Below, in pieces: positions 187 to 48,506 of a stretch of 64,000 nt of DNA (its first letter is position 1; every line of letters begins with the position of its first letter). Made by a program: the position numbers and the translations under genes. The stretch is from Brochothrix thermosphacta DSM 20171 = FSL F6-1036 (lineage in GTDB: Bacteria; Bacillota; Bacilli; Lactobacillales; Listeriaceae). The notes under the pieces are model-generated. The model searched no databases. It saw only the letters and a list, made by a program, of their open reading frames with translations, and was not told the DNA's origin. The stretch covers positions 930,001 through 994,000 of the forward strand of contig NZ_CP145608.1 of the NCBI RefSeq assembly GCF_036884295.1, written 5' to 3'.

Positions 187-276
187 GGAGGATTACCCAA
201 GTCTGGCTGAAGGGAACGGTCTTGAAAACCGTCAGGCGAGTAAAATCGCGCGGGGGTTCGAATCCCTCATCCTCCT
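187..276 (+). tRNA. tRNA-Ser(UGA)
   Basis: Class II tRNA with a long variable arm. Acceptor GGAGGAT pairs with ATCCTCC, anticodon TGA, T-loop TTCGAAT. No CCA encoded. Middle copy of the tandem array. Confidence 0.95.
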
Positions 277-391
277 TAACTGAACTCACTGTGATGGTTT
301 ATACTATAGCAGTTGATAACAGTAACTTACAAACATAAGTGAGTAAGGTAAGCAAAACTAGTTAAAAGTTAAAATCAAATATTTTTATTTC

Positions 392-481
392 GGAGGATTA
401 CCCAAGTCTGGCTGAAGGGAACGGTCTTGAAAACCGTCAGGCGAGTAAAATCGCGCGGGGGTTCGAATCCCTCATCCTCCT
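392..481 (+). tRNA. tRNA-Ser(UGA)
   Basis: Third copy in the tandem array and first gene of the 954-bp block. Same sequence as 187-276; anticodon TGA. Confidence 0.95.
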
Positions 482-555
482 TAACTGAGAATCACTGTGA
501 AGGTTTTAATCGAGCAGTTGATACACAGTAAATTAACAAGTACTATTTATATTAT

Positions 556-629
<74 letters not shown>

Positions 630-657
630 TTGCAAGTTAGCTTGCAAACAAGTTTTT

Positions 658-731
658 GGTCTGGTAGTTCAGCTGGTTAGAATGCCTGCCTGTCACGCAG
701 GAGGTCGCGGGTTCGAGTCCCGTCCAGACCG
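658..731 (+). tRNA. tRNA-Asp(GUC)
   Basis: Acceptor GGTCTGG/CCAGACC, discriminator G, anticodon GTC in CTGTCAC. Confidence 0.95.
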
Positions 732-740
732 TTTTTTTTT

Positions 741-813
741 GGCTCAGTAGCTCAGTTGGTAGAGCAACGGATTGAAGCTCCGTGTGTCGGCAGTTCGACT
801 CTGTCCTGAGCCA
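741..813 (+). tRNA. tRNA-Phe(GAA)
   Basis: Acceptor GGCTCAG/CTGAGCC, discriminator A, anticodon GAA in TTGAAGC. Confidence 0.94.
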
Positions 814-824
814 TATTTTATGAT

Positions 825-898
825 GGCGGTTGTGGTGAAGTGGTTAACACACCTGATTGTGGTTCAGGCATGCGTGGGTTCGATCCCCATCATCCGCC
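825..898 (+). tRNA. tRNA-His(GUG)
   Basis: An extra G at -1 pairs with C73, as usual for tRNA-His. Anticodon GTG. The acceptor contains one T-T mismatch. Confidence 0.92.
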
Positions 899-908
899 TT
901 TTGTATAT

Positions 909-979
909 GCGAGTGTAGTTTAGTGGTAAAACTACAGCCTTCCAAGCTGTTGTCGTCGGTTCGATCCCGATCACTCGCT
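909..979 (+). tRNA. tRNA-Gly(UCC)
   Basis: Acceptor GCGAGTG/CACTCGC, anticodon TCC in CTTCCAA. Confidence 0.94.
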
Positions 980-997
980 TTAGTAAGTTAGAAAATA

Positions 998-1071
<74 letters not shown>

Positions 1072-1077
1072 TTGTTA

Positions 1078-1150
1078 TCCGCAATAGCTCAGTTGGTAGA
1101 GCACACGACTGTTAATCGTGTTGTCGTAGGTTCGAGCCCTACTTGCGGAG
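1078..1150 (+). tRNA. tRNA-Asn(GUU)
   Basis: Acceptor TCCGCAA/TTGCGGA, discriminator G, anticodon GTT. Confidence 0.94.
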
Positions 1151-1153
1151 TTA

Positions 1154-1241
1154 GGGGAAATACTCAAGTGGCTGAAGAGGCGCCCCTGCTAAGGGTGTAG
1201 GTCGCGAAAGCGGCGCGAGGGTTCAAATCCCTCTTTCTCCG
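1154..1241 (+). tRNA. tRNA-Ser(GCU)
   Basis: Class II tRNA with a long variable arm. Acceptor GGGGAAA/TTTCTCC (one G-T), discriminator G, anticodon GCT. Confidence 0.94.
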
Positions 1242-1252
1242 TATTATATTTA

Positions 1253-1324
1253 GGCCCGTTGGTCAAGCGGTTAAGACACCGCCCTTTCACGGCGGTATCA
1301 CGGGTTCGAATCCCGTACGGGTCA
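1253..1324 (+). tRNA. tRNA-Glu(UUC)
   Basis: Acceptor GGCCCGT/ACGGGTC, anticodon TTC. Last gene of block copy 1. Confidence 0.95.
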
Positions 1325-1340
1325 TAGCAGTAAAAAAATA

Positions 1341-1368
1341 TTGACAATGAAAGCATACGTGTTATACT
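1341..1368 (+). promoter_or_regulatory. Sigma-A promoter inside the tRNA array
   Basis: TTGACA (1341-1346) and TATACT (1363-1368) are 16 bp apart, 18 bp upstream of tRNA-Thr. It sits just past the end of block copy 1, so the tRNAs from 1386 on probably start an independent transcript. Confidence 0.8.
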
Positions 1369-1385
1369 TACTATTGTCGTGTTAA

Positions 1386-1458
1386 GCCGACTTAGCTCAG
1401 TTGGTAGAGCAACTGATTTGTAATCAGTAGGTCGCGGGTTCGACTCCTGCAGTCGGCA
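1386..1458 (+). tRNA. tRNA-Thr(UGU)
   Basis: Acceptor GCCGACT/AGTCGGC, anticodon TGT. Confidence 0.95.
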
Positions 1459-1513
1459 TACATCTTCCTAGAAGATGTTGCTAGAAATAAATATTCAGCT
1501 TGTTGAAAAACAA

Positions 1514-1586
1514 GAGCCGTTAGCTCAGTTGGTAGAGCATCTGACTTTTAATCAGAGGGTCGCTGGTTCGAGCCCAGCACGGCTCA
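1514..1586 (+). tRNA. tRNA-Lys(UUU)
   Basis: Acceptor GAGCCGT/ACGGCTC, anticodon TTT. Confidence 0.95.
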
Positions 1587-1589
1587 TAT

Positions 1590-1661
1590 GCGAAAGTAGT
1601 TCAGTGGTAGAACATCACCTTGCCAAGGTGGGGGTCGCGAGTTCGAATCTCGTCTTTCGCT
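1590..1661 (+). tRNA. tRNA-Gly(GCC)
   Basis: Acceptor GCGAAAG/CTTTCGC, anticodon GCC. Only 3 nt separate it from tRNA-Lys. Confidence 0.94.
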
Positions 1662-1678
1662 TGTAATAAAATTTTTAA

Positions 1679-1764
1679 GCCGGGGTGGCGGAACTGGCAG
1701 ACGCACAGGACTTAAAATCCTGCGGTGAGTGATCACCGTGCCGGTTCGATTCCGGCCCTCGGCA
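1679..1764 (+). tRNA. tRNA-Leu(UAA)
   Basis: Class II tRNA; acceptor GCCGGGG/CCTCGGC, anticodon TAA, extended variable arm. Confidence 0.95.
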
Positions 1765-1782
1765 TAGTACGACTAATAAAAA

Positions 1783-1856
1783 GCGCCCATAGCTCAATTG
1801 GATAGAGTACTTGACTACGAATCAAGCGGTTAGAGGTTCGACTCCTCTTGGGCGCA
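1783..1856 (+). tRNA. tRNA-Arg(ACG)
   Basis: Acceptor GCGCCCA/TGGGCGC, anticodon ACG (normally edited to ICG by TadA). Confidence 0.95.
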
Positions 1857-1865
1857 TTTACAGCA

Positions 1866-1939
1866 CGGGAAGTAGCTCAGCTTGGTAGAGCACTTGGTTT
1901 GGGACCAAGGGGTCGCAGGTTCGAATCCTGTCTTCCCGA
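1866..1939 (+). tRNA. tRNA-Pro(UGG)
   Basis: Acceptor CGGGAAG/CTTCCCG, discriminator A, anticodon TGG. Confidence 0.95.
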
Positions 1940-1992
1940 TTGTATAGACATACATATACAAACGTAATATTCCAGTAATTACCCATTTTTAT

Positions 1993-2068
1993 GGGGCCTT
2001 AGCTCAGCTGGGAGAGCGCCTGCCTTGCACGCAGGAGGTCAGCGGTTCGATCCCGCTAGGCTCCACCA
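1993..2068 (+). tRNA. tRNA-Ala(UGC), CCA encoded
   Basis: Acceptor GGGGCCT/AGGCTCC, anticodon TGC. CCA is encoded at 2066-2068, unusual within this array. Confidence 0.95.
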
Positions 2069-2096
2069 ACAAAAGCAAACTCATTATATTATATAT

Positions 2097-2173
2097 GGCG
2101 GTGTAGCTCAGCTGGCTAGAGCATTCGGTTCATACCCGAAAGGTCGTGGGTTCGACTCCCTCTGCCGCTACCA
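2097..2173 (+). tRNA. tRNA-Met(CAU), elongator, CCA encoded
   Basis: Starts GGCGGTG with G1-U72 and two further wobble pairs in the acceptor. Anticodon CAT. CCA encoded at 2171-2173. Confidence 0.92.
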
Positions 2174-2191
2174 TTTTTTTATTATAATGCA

Positions 2192-2265
2192 GGACCTTTA
2201 GCTCAGTTGGTTAGAGCAGACGGCTCATAACCGTCCGGTCGTAGGTTCGAGTCCTACAAGGTCCA
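2192..2265 (+). tRNA. tRNA-Ile2 (CAU anticodon, probable lysidine target)
   Basis: Acceptor GGACCTT/AAGGTCC and a genomic CAT anticodon in CTCATAA. This body and its place right after tRNA-Met match the third CAU tRNA of Bacillus arrays, which TilS converts to read AUA. The Ile2 assignment is inferred from family resemblance. Confidence 0.85.
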
Positions 2266-2284
2266 TTATCATCATTTTTATTTC

Positions 2285-2374
2285 GGAGGATTACCCAAGT
2301 CTGGCTGAAGGGAACGGTCTTGAAAACCGTCAGGCGAGTAAAATCGCGCGGGGGTTCGAATCCCTCATCCTCCT
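2285..2374 (+). tRNA. tRNA-Ser(UGA)
   Basis: Identical to 392-481. Anticodon TGA. Confidence 0.95.
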
Positions 2375-2448
2375 TAACTGAGAATCACTGTGAAGGTTTT
2401 AATCGAGCAGTTGATACACAGTAAATTAACAAGTACTATTTATATTAT

Positions 2449-2522
<74 letters not shown>

Positions 2523-2550
2523 TTGCAAGTTAGCTTGCAAACAAGTTTTT

Positions 2551-2624
2551 GGTCTGGTAGTTCAGCTGGTTAGAATGCCTGCCTGTCACGCAGGAGGTCG
2601 CGGGTTCGAGTCCCGTCCAGACCG
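2551..2624 (+). tRNA. tRNA-Asp(GUC)
   Basis: Identical to 658-731. Confidence 0.95.
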
Positions 2625-2633
2625 TTTTTTTTT

Positions 2634-2706
2634 GGCTCAGTAGCTCAGTTGGTAGAGCAACGGATTGAAGCTCCGTGTGTCGGCAGTTCGACTCTGTCCT
2701 GAGCCA
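2634..2706 (+). tRNA. tRNA-Phe(GAA)
   Basis: Identical to 741-813. Confidence 0.94.
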
Positions 2707-2717
2707 TATTTTATGAT

Positions 2718-2791
2718 GGCGGTTGTGGTGAAGTGGTTAACACACCTGATTGTGGTTCAGGCATGCGTGGGTTCGATCCCCATCATCCGCC
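2718..2791 (+). tRNA. tRNA-His(GUG)
   Basis: Identical to 825-898. Confidence 0.92.
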
Positions 2792-2801
2792 TTTTGTATA
2801 T

Positions 2802-2872
2802 GCGAGTGTAGTTTAGTGGTAAAACTACAGCCTTCCAAGCTGTTGTCGTCGGTTCGATCCCGATCACTCGCT
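2802..2872 (+). tRNA. tRNA-Gly(UCC)
   Basis: Identical to 909-979. Confidence 0.94.
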
Positions 2873-2890
2873 TTAGTAAGTTAGAAAATA

Positions 2891-2964
<74 letters not shown>

Positions 2965-2970
2965 TTGTTA

Positions 2971-3043
2971 TCCGCAATAGCTCAGTTGGTAGAGCACACG
3001 ACTGTTAATCGTGTTGTCGTAGGTTCGAGCCCTACTTGCGGAG
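2971..3043 (+). tRNA. tRNA-Asn(GUU)
   Basis: Identical to 1078-1150. Confidence 0.94.
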
Positions 3044-3046
3044 TTA

Positions 3047-3134
3047 GGGGAAATACTCAAGTGGCTGAAGAGGCGCCCCTGCTAAGGGTGTAGGTCGCGA
3101 AAGCGGCGCGAGGGTTCAAATCCCTCTTTCTCCG
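3047..3134 (+). tRNA. tRNA-Ser(GCU)
   Basis: Identical to 1154-1241. Confidence 0.94.
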
Positions 3135-3145
3135 TATTATATTTA

Positions 3146-3217
3146 GGCCCGTTGGTCAAGCGGTTAAGACACCGCCCTTTCACGGCGGTATCACGGGTTC
3201 GAATCCCGTACGGGTCA
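3146..3217 (+). tRNA. tRNA-Glu(UUC)
   Basis: Identical to 1253-1324. Last tRNA of the array. Confidence 0.95.
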
Positions 3218-39037: not shown

Positions 39038-39889
39038 ATGATTTTAGTGAAAAAAATATTGAACTCAAGTGTTGTTTTGGTAGATAATGATGGACAAGAA
39101 ATGATTGCCTTAGGTAAAGGGATTGGCTATGGAAAGAAAAATGGAGATATCATTTCAGATTCAGTTGTTGATAAAATTTTCTTGCCAATTGAAGCAAAAA
39201 AATCAACCCACTTTGCAGAGTTAGTTAATGAAATTCCAATAAAGTTTTTTGAAATAACGAAAGAGATTGTATCTTTGGCAGAAACTGAATTGTCTTATCA
39301 ATTAAATCCTTCGATTTATTTAACACTATCAGATCATCTGCACTTTGCTGTTGAACGGAATGAAAAGGGGATTAATACATCGAATCGCTTGTATTGGGAG
39401 ATTAAAAATTATTATCCAAAAGAGTATCATGTTGGTGAAGTGGCGCTTAAACAAATCAAAGAGAAACACTCTTTTAATTTACCAGAAGAAGAGGCTTCTA
39501 ATATTGCTTTTCATCTTATTAATGCTCAGTCAGATATTGCTGAAGACCAAGATGGGCTAAGAAAAGCTAAATTAGTTGGTACCATTGTTAATATGGTAAG
39601 GTACTCCATTCAACACAACTTAGATACAAATTCAATCCATTATACGCGATTTATTACCCATGTTCGTTTTTTCGTCGACCGTTTTTTCTCAGGAGGCTTA
39701 ATTCAAGAAAAAGAAGACGAATTGTATCGACAAATGTGGTCGTTATATCCAGCTGCTATGGAGGTAGCAACGAAGGTGAAAAGTTATGTTGATCAAGCCT
39801 ATAATACAAAGATACCAGAAAATGAAATTGTCTATCTAGGTGTTCATATTAATCGACTAATGAATCATACACTACTAAATAAAGAGTGA
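39038..39889 (+). CDS. licT: Transcriptional antiterminator, BglG/LicT family
   Basis: N-terminal RNA-binding CAT domain (residues 1-56, with KILNSSVVLV and LGKGIGYGKKNGD) and two PTS regulation domains. PRD1 carries His in LSDHLHFAVER; PRD2 carries TRFITHVRFFVDRF. EII phosphorylates PRD1 to inactivate it, and HPr activates through PRD2. 283 residues. It is the last gene of the operon it controls through the RAT at 35550, so its own expression depends on antitermination. Confidence 0.93.
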   Translation: MILVKKILNSSVVLVDNDGQEMIALGKGIGYGKKNGDIISDSVVDKIFLPIEAKKSTHFAELVNEIPIKFFEITKEIVSLAETELSYQLNPSIYLTLSDHLHFAVERNEKGINTSNRLYWEIKNYYPKEYHVGEVALKQIKEKHSFNLPEEEASNIAFHLINAQSDIAEDQDGLRKAKLVGTIVNMVRYSIQHNLDTNSIHYTRFITHVRFFVDRFFSGGLIQEKEDELYRQMWSLYPAAMEVATKVKSYVDQAYNTKIPENEIVYLGVHINRLMNHTLLNKE

Positions 39890-46156: not shown

Positions 46157-46170
46157 AACTATTTTTAAAA

Positions 46171-46212
46171 GCAATCAATTGACCGTTTTCACAGCGGTAG
46201 TTGGTTGCTTTT
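46171..46212 (+). terminator. uppP terminator
   Basis: GCAATCAATTGACCG pairs with CGGTAGTTGGTTGC (wobble and one bulge), then seven T. Confidence 0.85.
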
Positions 46213-46350
46213 TTTAGTGATAGCCTCATCGTATTAGTGGTAGTTTTATTCCAATCAAAATCAATGAAGATCAGTGTGGATATTGCTTCTTTACCTAATT
46301 TAGAAGGTATGCTATCATAAAGTTAATAAAGTGAAACGGAGGTGGTTAGT

Positions 46351-46482
46351 ATGTGTTTATTATCTGTGGTTACGAGTGAAAAAAGACAAGCGGTTCTTAC
46401 ATTCACACGTGGTCTTTCTTATGCATTTTTCAACTCACTGGAGGAGTCTGTCAAAAATCATAATAAAGTAAACCACAGCTGA
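46351..46482 (+). CDS. Leader peptide ORF upstream of the ABC-F gene, 43 residues
   Basis: ATG 46351 is preceded by a strong ACGGAGGTGG site. The peptide begins MCLLSVVTSEKRQ and ends NKVNHS. The last codons (AACCACAGCT, 46471-46480) are perfectly complementary to AGCTGTGGTT just before the ABC-F ribosome site. An intrinsic terminator lies between. This is the layout of a translated attenuation leader, in which a drug-stalled ribosome changes the folding of the RNA. Peptide function beyond that is not implied. Confidence 0.65.
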   Translation: MCLLSVVTSEKRQAVLTFTRGLSYAFFNSLEESVKNHNKVNHS

Positions 46483-46540
46483 TATTACCGTATTAATCAC
46501 TATTTTAACCCCATTCATTTATGATGAAGGTTATAACTAG

Positions 46541-46573
46541 AGTCGGATGCTGTTAGCATGCGGCTATTTTTAT
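46541..46573 (+). terminator. Attenuator terminator in the ABC-F leader
   Basis: AGTCGGATGCT (46541-46551) and AGCATGCGGCT (46555-46565) pair with one mismatch around GTT, then ATTTTTAT. Its right arm and T run also belong to a competing hairpin, GCTATTTTT/AAAAATAGC (46564-46586). Confidence 0.75.
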
Positions 46574-46617
46574 ACACAAAAATAGCTGTGGTTTTCTAAT
46601 AAACGGAGGAAAACAAA

Positions 46618-48462
46618 ATGTTGATTAAAGCGGAAGCAGTTACAAAAATAATAGGTGGGACACTCATCTTTGAAGATTTAACATTAACAGCGAATCAAAA
46701 ACAAATCATCGGAATTGTGGGTCGTAATGGTTGTGGAAAAACAACATTACTTAAATTATTAGCAGATGTCGAAACAGCAGATGTGGGTCGGATAATTAAA
46801 CGTAAAGGGATTAGAACGGGATATTTGCATCAGATTCCACAGTTTGAAATAGAATACACTGGAAAAGATGTCTTACATCTAGCGTTCTCTCAAACGTTGG
46901 CACTACAGGTAGAATTAGAAGAATTAGAAAGGCGTATGGTGACACTTACTGGTGATGCGTTAGAGCGGAAATTACTTGTTTATGGTGAAAAACAAGAGGC
47001 TTTTATTCAAGCTGGTGGTTATGAGATTGAAGCTAAAGTAAATCGTGTAGTAAAGGGACTGAAATTAGAGTCAATCATTGAGACAACGTTTACCCAACTT
47101 AGCGGGGGTGAACAGACCAAAATTATGTTGGGGCAGTTGCTTTTGAGTGAACCTGATGTCTTGTTGCTAGATGAACCGACCAATCATCTTGATATGTTGG
47201 CGATTGATTGGTTAGAAGACTATTTACGTAATTTTGAAGGTGCTACGCTTATCATTTCACACGATCGTTATTTCCTTAATGCTGTATCTACAAGTATTGC
47301 TGAGATAGAAGACGGTGTTTTGAAGACATACAATGGAAATTATGATCGTTATGTTAAAGAAAAAGAAGCTGAAATCATGCAAGCCTTCCAACAGTATGAT
47401 GAGCAACAAAAGAAAATTAAAAAGATGCAAGAAGCCATTAAGCAATTAAAAATATGGGCGAATGAGGCATCGCCACCTAGTGCTTCGTTGCATCGTCGTG
47501 CTAAGAATATGGAAAAAGCCTTAGCGCGAATTGTTGTGAAAAAACGCCCACCTGTTGCTAAAAAAATGAACCTTAGTTTACAAAATGCTGACCGTGCTGG
47601 AAATGATGTATTAGGATTAGAAGCGGTTAGTTTTGGTTACGGTCAGACGCTCTTTAATTGTGTAAATGTATCTATTGGTTGGAAAGACCATATTGCTATT
47701 GTCGGTGAAAACGGGGCAGGTAAAACCACTTTATTGAAGATAATGAGTGGTGAATTGTCGCCCGACAATGGTCAGGTGAAAAGTGGAAGCAACGTGAAAA
47801 TAGGATATCTCTCACAAAAGTTGAATCATCAAGCGACTGATATACGATTAATCGATGCCTTTCGAGAAAATATCAGTATAACGGAAGAAGAAGCGAGAAG
47901 CGTTCTTGCTAGCTTCTTGTTTTATGGTTATGATGTCTTCAAGCAAGTTGCTTCATTAAGCGGTGGTGAGCGTATGAGGTTACGTTTAGCGCAGTTGATG
48001 TACGAAGATGTTAATGTCCTGGTGCTAGATGAGCCAACTAACCATTTGGATATTGAATCGCGTGAGGTTCTAGAAGAACAGTTAGCTCTATTCAAAGGCA
48101 CAATTATAGCTGTTTCACATGATCGTTATTTTCTTAATGCCTTGTTTAATCGCATAATCTGGCTAGAAAATCGGACAGCTAAGCTTTATTCGGGCAACTA
48201 CGACGAGGCTAAGAAGCAACACGGTATCGCTCATGCAAAAGTACCTTTGGAAAAAATTGCGGTAAAAAAAGATTATCGTAATAATACAACTATGCGTGAT
48301 TATGAAGGAGAATGCTCTAATATAGAGCAACAAATCTCCACTTTGAAGCAGGAAATCACGAACGAATCTAACTGGGAAAATTACCAGGATTTAGAAAAAG
48401 AGTTAACAACATTGGAAAAAAAATTACAGGTGCTTTTAAACGAATGGGTCATGAATGAGTAA
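46618..48462 (+). CDS. ABC-F family ATPase, probable ribosome-protection protein
   Basis: Two ABC cassettes without membrane domains. Cassette 1 has GRNGCGKTT, LSGGEQTKI and LLLDEPTNHLD; cassette 2 has GENGAGKTT, LSGGERMRL and LVLDEPTNHLD. A linker of about 90 residues (LKIWANEASPPSASLHRRAK) joins them, and a coiled-coil tail ends the 614 residues. ABC-F proteins act on the ribosomal E site. Those with attenuation leaders, such as VmlR, confer lincosamide, streptogramin or pleuromutilin resistance. The leader upstream is the main reason to suspect a resistance role. I cannot assign the subfamily. Confidence 0.88.
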   Translation: MLIKAEAVTKIIGGTLIFEDLTLTANQKQIIGIVGRNGCGKTTLLKLLADVETADVGRIIKRKGIRTGYLHQIPQFEIEYTGKDVLHLAFSQTLALQVELEELERRMVTLTGDALERKLLVYGEKQEAFIQAGGYEIEAKVNRVVKGLKLESIIETTFTQLSGGEQTKIMLGQLLLSEPDVLLLDEPTNHLDMLAIDWLEDYLRNFEGATLIISHDRYFLNAVSTSIAEIEDGVLKTYNGNYDRYVKEKEAEIMQAFQQYDEQQKKIKKMQEAIKQLKIWANEASPPSASLHRRAKNMEKALARIVVKKRPPVAKKMNLSLQNADRAGNDVLGLEAVSFGYGQTLFNCVNVSIGWKDHIAIVGENGAGKTTLLKIMSGELSPDNGQVKSGSNVKIGYLSQKLNHQATDIRLIDAFRENISITEEEARSVLASFLFYGYDVFKQVASLSGGERMRLRLAQLMYEDVNVLVLDEPTNHLDIESREVLEEQLALFKGTIIAVSHDRYFLNALFNRIIWLENRTAKLYSGNYDEAKKQHGIAHAKVPLEKIAVKKDYRNNTTMRDYEGECSNIEQQISTLKQEITNESNWENYQDLEKELTTLEKKLQVLLNEWVMNE

Positions 48463-48470
48463 AGAAAAAC

Positions 48471-48502
48471 GCCACTGAGATATTAGTCTCAGTGGCATTT
48501 TT
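48471..48502. terminator. Bidirectional terminator between the ABC-F gene and ponA
   Basis: GCCACTGAGA and TCTCAGTGGC form a perfect 10-bp stem. T-rich sequence follows on both strands, serving both converging genes. Confidence 0.9.
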
Positions 48503-48506
48503 AGTA

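Follow-up and report, generated by a model that had tools for sequence, protein, structure and literature searches.

A worn leader ahead of a Brochothrix thermosphacta ABC-F gene belongs to a putative class of RNA leaders that precede ribosome-drug resistance genes

The window analysed here, a stretch of 64,000 nucleotides of the Brochothrix thermosphacta genome, carries an open reading frame (ORF), a terminator and repeated segments directly ahead of an ABC-F gene. This arrangement raises the question of what kind of leader it is, and whether it could switch the gene on in response to a drug. A sequence-only reading had proposed a translated attenuation leader of the vmlR/lmo0919 kind. Translated attenuation is still the best reading and has comparative support, but the uORFs of the vmlR/lmo0919 kind have three codons, and the window leader lies outside that tripeptide class. 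The earlier proposal thus appears, with partial support, correct in kind and wrong in detail, having misread the pairing roles and drawn its comparison with tripeptide systems. Our models place the leader as a diverged, worn member of one RNA leader class, here named the RAxF/rliI leader class. The window leader taken alone is an unremarkable, worn case, and the interest lies in the class to which it leads.

The elements that the earlier proposal named are present (Table 1): the 43-codon ORF with its strong ribosome site, the intrinsic terminator and T5 between the repeats, the alternative hairpin that uses the 3' part of the terminator, and an exact complementarity between the end of the ORF and the downstream repeat, which reaches 11 nt if the next pair is counted. 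The terminator hairpin, AGTCGGATGCT/AGCATGCGGCT, spans 46541–46565 with one G.G mismatch (−12.9 kcal/mol), and the rival hairpin overlaps it. A third copy of the repeat had been overlooked: CTGTGGTT also pairs with AACCACAG at 46471–46478. Missed too was the main covarying helix, P1, in which the ribosome site, start codon and opening codons of the leader pair with the end of the ORF and the bases past its stop; in the predicted fold of the window it pairs 46341–46371 with 46471–46501. Both the P1a helix and P2 covary in relatives. Although the ORF had been thought long, its length is ordinary within this class: the leader ORFs of relatives mostly encode 36–48 aa and some 26–27 aa.

Table 1. 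Positions of leader and ABC-F features in the window
Feature	Position	Strand	Basis
Leader and ABC-F block, absent between the same two genes in G001	46157–48506		Genome comparison
Promoter-like TTTACC-17-TATCAT, TG preceding the second hexamer	46290–46318	+	Consensus scan
Leader ribosome site GGAGGT, seven bases before ATG	46338–46343	+	Sequence
P1a 5' strand GGUGGUUAGUAUG (ribosome site and start codon), partner 46489–46501	46341–46353	+	Predicted fold
Leader ORF, 43 codons and TGA, MCLLSVVTSEKRQAVLTFTRGLSYAFFNSLEESVKNHNKVNHS, ends AGC TGA	46351–46482	+	Sequence
Segment 1, CTGTGGTT, codons 5–7, pairs with segment 2 (P1b)	46364–46371	+	Repeat search and predicted fold
P2 hairpin within ORF, GUGAA 46376–46380 / UUCAC 46402–46406	46376–46406	+	Predicted fold
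Degenerate GGGA..GTnTGnCC.TTTTT class element, GGAGGAGTCTGTCAAAAA region	46441–46456	+	Alignments
Segment 2, AACCACAGCT, partner segment 1 or segment 3	46471–46480	+	Repeat search
P1a 3' strand	46489–46501	+	Predicted fold
Intrinsic terminator hairpin and T5	46541–46571	+	Hairpin search
Rival hairpin, excluded by 2:3 pairing	46559–46590	+	Predicted
Segment 3, AGCTGTGGTT	46584–46593	+	Repeat search
SL4 hairpin GTTTTCT/GGAAAAC, covers part of ABC-F ribosome site	46591–46614	+	Predicted folds
ABC-F gene, 614 aa, ribosomal protection-like	46618–48462	+	NF000355, 474.5 bits, cut-off 380
Terminator-like hairpin past ABC-F gene	48471–48496	+	Hairpin search

The folds had also been described as mutually exclusive. 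Pairing of segment 2 with segment 3 (2:3) does exclude the rival hairpin, but the terminator nests inside 2:3 and is not excluded. A role for 2:3 as a simple antiterminator is ruled out because its 3' strand is made only after this nested terminator. An exact inverted repeat with a loop of at least 60 nt arose in 5 of 1,000 dinucleotide shuffles at a length of at least 11 nt and in 26 of 1,000 at a length of at least 10 nt. The 1-2-3 triple is rarer by chance, appearing in 0 of 1,000 shuffles at 8 nt and in 1 of 1,000 at 7 nt, and the leader folds 3.43 s.d. below 100 shuffles. Promoter-like sites are as common in shuffles (mean 9.4) as in the window leader region (10 found), and the promoter entered in Table 1 is therefore a guess.

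The downstream gene was assigned by family models. NF000355 was the only model over its cut-off among the matches listed (25 of 199 families), and in that same list the protein stayed under the cut-offs of the Vga, Sal, Msr, Lsa, OptrA and CplR subfamilies. Its best solved relative is 8buu, labelled ExpZ. Because only the general protection-like model was passed, we infer resistance for this protein partly from the company that the leader keeps.

Placement of the leader relied on sequence–structure models. Covariance model R1 was built from 18 leaders of Lysinibacillus, Jeotgalibacillus, Kurthia and relatives, all of them ABC-F leaders and the window excluded. It matches the window at 46332–46508, a span that encloses the leader ORF, with 33.9 bits (E 2.3e-7 in the window and 9.2e-6 in the genome). 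The next window match, at 39351–39493, has 18.0 bits and was treated as background; the next listed genome match after the two members has 13.8 bits, and off-target matches in 578 kb of relatives reach 20.3 bits. An nhmmer profile of 22 leaders, the set from which the 18 of R1 were taken and likewise without the window, matches 46335–46511 (E 5.9e-5, with a bias correction of 9.7 bits), and the next best match in 64 kb has an E of 1.4. When 87 further ABC-F loci were scanned with R1 (E up to 0.1), 84 gave a match at the expected place of the leader. Since background overlaps each of the weakest of these matches (mostly Listeria-type, 17–25 bits), they rest on position and on R2, a model trained on 74 leaders with the window included. 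A leader ORF with ribosome site and motif, the motif being one that we chose after looking, is found in 97 of 110 stretches upstream of the ABC-F gene and its homologues (the best 30 loci of 60 genomes, the window's own included, and 80 further loci). The 13 stretches lacking a motif ORF include the window, L031 and L042, which have an evident family ORF, and L087 and L102, which are truncated by contig ends.

The peptide of the window gave a weaker signal. It has no match to the RAxF-45 family (NF041642, cut-off 27 bits) at E up to 10. Of the seven leader peptides tested, that of the window included, four exceed the cut-off, a Listeria-type peptide falls just under it (24.9 bits) and that of L004, like the window's, gives nothing. 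A profile of 86 leader peptides scores the window peptide at 2.0 bits and leaves it unplaced. Its best global alignment was equalled by 109 of 3,000 shuffles and its mean score by 19 of 3,000. Homology of the peptide alone was set aside after ranking 775 among the window, 20,000 shuffles and a few other ORFs. The peptide being too weak a witness, membership therefore rests on the DNA and RNA models. Alignment to relatives shows one extra base in the window near 46424, compensated by a loss further on. The distal ORF is therefore read in another frame, while the stop still lies at the homologous site.

Comparison across relatives defines the class structure. In an alignment of 18 leaders made from sequence only, 89.9% of cells pair compared with 87.2% after shuffling (0 of 500), and the covariation score is 0.134 compared with 0.087 for shuffles (0 of 500); slid, it reaches no more than 0.072. 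The both-side changes of these 18 leaders are located in P1a, P1b and P2. Shuffles do as well, however, in the number of pairs that change on both sides (6; 134/500) and in that of further pair types (22; 246/500). Among 74 rows aligned to R1, an alignment that includes the window and L112 and leans toward the model, 40 of 44 pairs change on both sides (700 cells versus 235.5) and the covariation score is 0.520 versus 0.188.

The ORFs of relatives also carry a coding signal. For 66 near pairs, pN/pS is 0.59 in frame versus 0.89 and 0.95 off frame. Over the first three fifths of the ORF, 226 differences fall on third positions versus 121 on first and 116 on second positions, and the last two fifths have no third-position excess (105 versus 124 and 108). 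This pattern suggests that translation and part of the peptide matter as far as about the RAxF motif and that the distal part is kept as RNA. The distal element of the class, AcGGGAtanGTnTGnCCtTTTTTA (lower case, 55–80%), is read in different frames in the RAxF and the fexA leaders and sits past the stop in L004. Its core, GGGA..GUnUGnCC.UUUUUA, is kept independently of reading frame and hence looks like a distinct RNA or transcription-pause signal; that it may be a pause signal like that of vmlR is a guess by analogy. The window retains only GGAG.AGTCTGTC of this element and its T run is gone, so that it does not count as carrying the element.

How such a leader might switch was approached by folding. 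All 40 leaders searched have a terminator-like hairpin and T run between ORF and gene (−10.8 to −24.1 kcal/mol, the best hairpin being taken per leader). Equilibrium folding was rejected as proof of a transcription switch, the terminator being formed to 0.73–1.00 at every ribosome position in 18 of 18 leaders. In that run a ribosome on codon 1 opens the ABC-F ribosome site by at least 0.05 in 10 of the 18 leaders; the window is among the other 8, with an openness of 0.36 with the ribosome on codon 1 versus 0.56 without it. Snapshots with RNA made as far as the terminator 5' arm, which are a stand-in for kinetics only, were used to follow P1. In all 26 leaders folded this way, the window among them, P1 is abolished by a ribosome on codon 1 and reduced to less than half by one on codon 5; a ribosome at codon 12 or beyond generally spares it.

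The same snapshots showed how many pairs the freed region gains with the terminator arm. This gain has a mean of 5.4 in 33 leaders and lies above the shuffled-arm mean in 25 of them. (The sets of 26 and 33 were our own choice from the 40 terminator-searched leaders plus L112.) The gain is clear in L112, L061, L052, L097 and L024 (0 of 30 shuffles) and absent in L062, L063, L070, L076, L094, L095, L101 and L108 (at least 17 of 30 shuffles as high). The window gains 2.0 pairs, a value equalled in 7 of 30 shuffles, which leaves transcription control without support in its case; among candidate partners of the window's terminator arm none stands out (193 of 200 shuffles as good). As a general partner of the terminator 5' arm the conserved element is also unsupported across the 40 leaders, though strong in a few (L058, 11 of 200).

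In folding predictions for the window, the 2:3 pairing responds to ribosome position. With RNA to 46600, 2:3 has 10.6 pairs with the ribosome on codon 1 versus 0.0 without, about 4 with the ribosome at codons 3–7 and 0.1 at codon 9. It overlaps the 5' arm of SL4, and the ABC-F ribosome site, GGAGG at 46605–46609, is partly within SL4. Once SL4 is transcribed, 2:3 is lost at equilibrium and the ribosome site is 0.46–0.47 open at every ribosome position tried. Because equilibrium with SL4 removes it, 2:3 would have to act during transcription.

We consider it probable that the window leader is a RAxF/rliI-class member with drug-switched control of a gene that protects the peptidyl-transferase centre. 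This reading draws on the homology of the window, its ORF, the covariation of P1 and P2 in the class, predicted terminators in the relatives tested and the kinds of gene downstream. Without drug, ribosomes would traverse the ORF and P1 would form between leader start and leader end, so that the RNA would stop at the terminator or the ribosome site of the gene would stay folded. P1 would be prevented if a drug arrested the ribosome within codons 1 to about 7, the likely stall zone in the folding model. In many relatives and in the second leader of this genome the freed 3' strand would then pair with the terminator 5' arm; in the window, segment 2 would pair with segment 3 and disturb the hairpin over the ABC-F ribosome site. 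The gene product would be made mainly in the presence of such a drug. For vmlR, stalling on the first codons has been argued for lincosamides, pleuromutilins and streptogramin A (PMC9226507); by analogy these drugs would fit first-codon stalling and may be the relevant ones here.

It is unlikely that the leader is instead a decayed class homologue that has lost its switch and allows fixed low expression through a partly efficient terminator. The frame shifts of the distal ORF, the lost T run, the undetectable antiterminator of the window and the ribosome-site opening that is unaffected at equilibrium all point this way. However, the three segments of the 1-2-3 repeat still match exactly, which no shuffle reproduced (0 of 1,000), the ORF, ribosome site and homologous-site stop are retained, and the R1 score is still 33.9 bits.

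Other carriers of the class were surveyed with both models. R1 (E up to 1e-3) finds leaders in 60 of 250 genomes of the taxonomic class, in 34 of 106 genera, and in 11 of 148 genomes of the order; R2 finds them in 155 of 398 genomes of the taxonomic class and 57 of 146 genera. Within the family, R2 (E up to 0.01) matches 34 of 36 genomes, the window's own included, and misses G001 (same genus, 85% complete) and G028. These surveys overlap. Downstream genes were read for 81 matches, which do not count as independent events because the window and closely related species are among them. They comprise 72 ABC-F genes and a 73rd by eye, 4 Cfr, 2 FexA-type, 1 other MFS and 1 methyltransferase gene; resistance-type genes thus follow 80 of the 81, one of them by eye. 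The R1 surveys contributed 41 of these matches: 38 before ABC-F genes (L143 and L146 with partial frames), one before Cfr (L138, 606.1 bits, cut-off 468), one before FexA (L145, 918.6 bits, cut-off 900) and one before the MFS gene of the second copy in this genome, described below. The other 40 are R2 matches hand-picked for other genera and second matches. BLAST places 34 of them before ABC-F genes (L186 and L196 partial) and frame reading one more (L177); three precede Cfr (L162, L164 and L190, each at least 615 bits), and L169 precedes a FexA-like protein (709.4 bits, below the cut-off of 900). L165, L166 and L185 precede another ABC-F type (33–34% identity); their leader ORFs have 10–11 codons, and the GGGA..GTCTG.CC element is retained. 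L171:51-224 scores 47.8 bits with R2 and only 17.0 bits with R1, ahead of a methyltransferase-like gene of unknown role without a close NCBIfam match; it may be chance or a new target gene.

Mobile copies of class leaders occur on plasmids. Plasmid records that match number 263 for the L145 leader of fexA and 109 for the L162 leader of cfr. On the S. aureus plasmid pGMI17-006 (loci L202:3017-4364 and L203:2039-3860) the 'hypothetical protein' annotated before cfr and before fexA is the leader ORF, and R1 scores the two leaders at 32.9 bits (cfr) and 36.1 bits (fexA). The plasmid cfr and fexA leader peptides tested against RAxF-45 are not members. An ABC-F leader on an S. epidermidis plasmid is marginal (15.3 bits with R1, 30.8 with R2). 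A mobile copy of the window leader was sought and discarded: 16 plasmid records match the gene and none the leader among the matches listed.

Known systems resemble the window leader in part. On paper the vmlR leader of Bacillus subtilis has the same set of parts, namely a uORF, anti-antiterminator, antiterminator, terminator and ribosome-site hairpin, but compared by description its uORF has three codons (MIN) and that of the window 43 (PMC9226507). Likewise rli53/lmo0919 has drug-responsive termination ahead of an ABC-F gene but carries a three-amino-acid ORF (PMC8079631). The bmrB leader of bmrCD is also translated and long, at 53 aa, and 50S drugs act on its attenuation, although, by its description, its terminator lies inside the ORF (PMC4191407). 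The fexA attenuator is a listed translation attenuator (PMC5418344), and the plasmid fexA leader belongs to the R1 matches above; unlike the window leader it controls an efflux gene, and the part of that source used here names no shared class. The RAxF-45 model describes a protein. For rliI (RF01487, upstream of lmo2760 in Listeria), 2 of 12 loci scanned, both of the Listeria family, have an Rfam match, and in both the R1 match upstream of the ABC-F homologue lies on it; the window has no rliI match at gathering score.

Three further alternatives were weighed. It is improbable that the 43-codon ORF is incidental and that the leader works as an attenuator of the vmlR/rli53 type through a very short uORF. 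In the folding test P1 does depend on the first codons only, and three R2 matches (L165, L166 and L185) have leader ORFs of about 10 codons, yet the frame of relatives is selected far past the first codons (226 versus 121 and 116). Very improbable is an ORF that encodes a small protein with a function of its own, the RNA folds being secondary: coding selection in relatives and the NCBI family name RAxF-45, which denotes a protein, agree with it, but the leader sits ahead of resistance-type genes, RNA covariation runs across the ORF, its last two fifths show no third-position excess and the window peptide lacks most of the family sequence. We give hardly any credence to a mainly trans-acting small RNA, as proposed for RliI, which is catalogued as an sRNA and for which tested pairing with the lmo1035-lmo1036 transcript is reported, since the linkage to resistance-type genes is tight and the same source also describes RliI as putatively a conditional terminator that acts on lmo2760 (PMC8079631).

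The genome holds a second, better copy of the leader. The best R1 match in the genome is C1:1395951-1396124 on the minus strand (44.6 bits), which outscores the window leader. It has 42 codons and stands before a 414-aa MFS transporter of drug-efflux type (Pfam MFS_1, 112.9 bits), followed on the same strand by two SmdA/SmdB-type ABC exporter genes, both below equivalog cut-offs (locus L117:1950-6867). No other leader computed gains as many antiterminator pairs as this one (11.8, 0 of 30 shuffles).

In G001, the other genome of the genus, uppP is followed by 27 bases and then the end of the penicillin-binding-protein gene (L232:858-884); in the window a 2350-base block of leader and ABC-F gene lies between these two genes, with a G+C of 0.371 versus 0.369 for the window. 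Leader and gene were gained or lost together. Elsewhere in the window, 30 tRNA genes are clustered at 187–3217, and the block Ser, Met, Asp, Phe, His, Gly, Ile, Asn, Ser, Glu occurs twice there in the same order.

As judged by the models, the class consists of putative RNA switches, mostly with a leader ORF of about 40 codons, before ribosome-drug resistance genes in many Gram-positive bacteria. We lean, by a little, towards a wider proposal: that leaders so far catalogued separately, namely the rliI 'sRNA', the RAxF-45 'proteins', the fexA attenuator and the hypothetical ORF ahead of plasmid cfr, form a single homologous class whose members sense, as RNA, drugs of the peptidyl-transferase centre. 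Such a class would travel with its gene, would have been put to use ahead of ABC-F, Cfr, FexA and other MFS genes, would form a small regulon of two copies in this genome and would carry the distal element as a distinct RNA or transcription-pause signal. No paper uniting these leaders was found in the portion of the open-licence PubMed Central literature consulted. If true, this would explain what an orphan 'small RNA' of Listeria does, and likewise a small-protein family that has a name but no explanation, and a large uncharacterised ABC-F group, lmo2760 included, would be predicted to be drug-inducible protection factors. It would place the stall position at the first codons, where it is testable, and raise the question of why some 20 further codons are under selection. 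Finally, the control of mobile cfr and fexA would be tied to a chromosomal device found across Bacilli.
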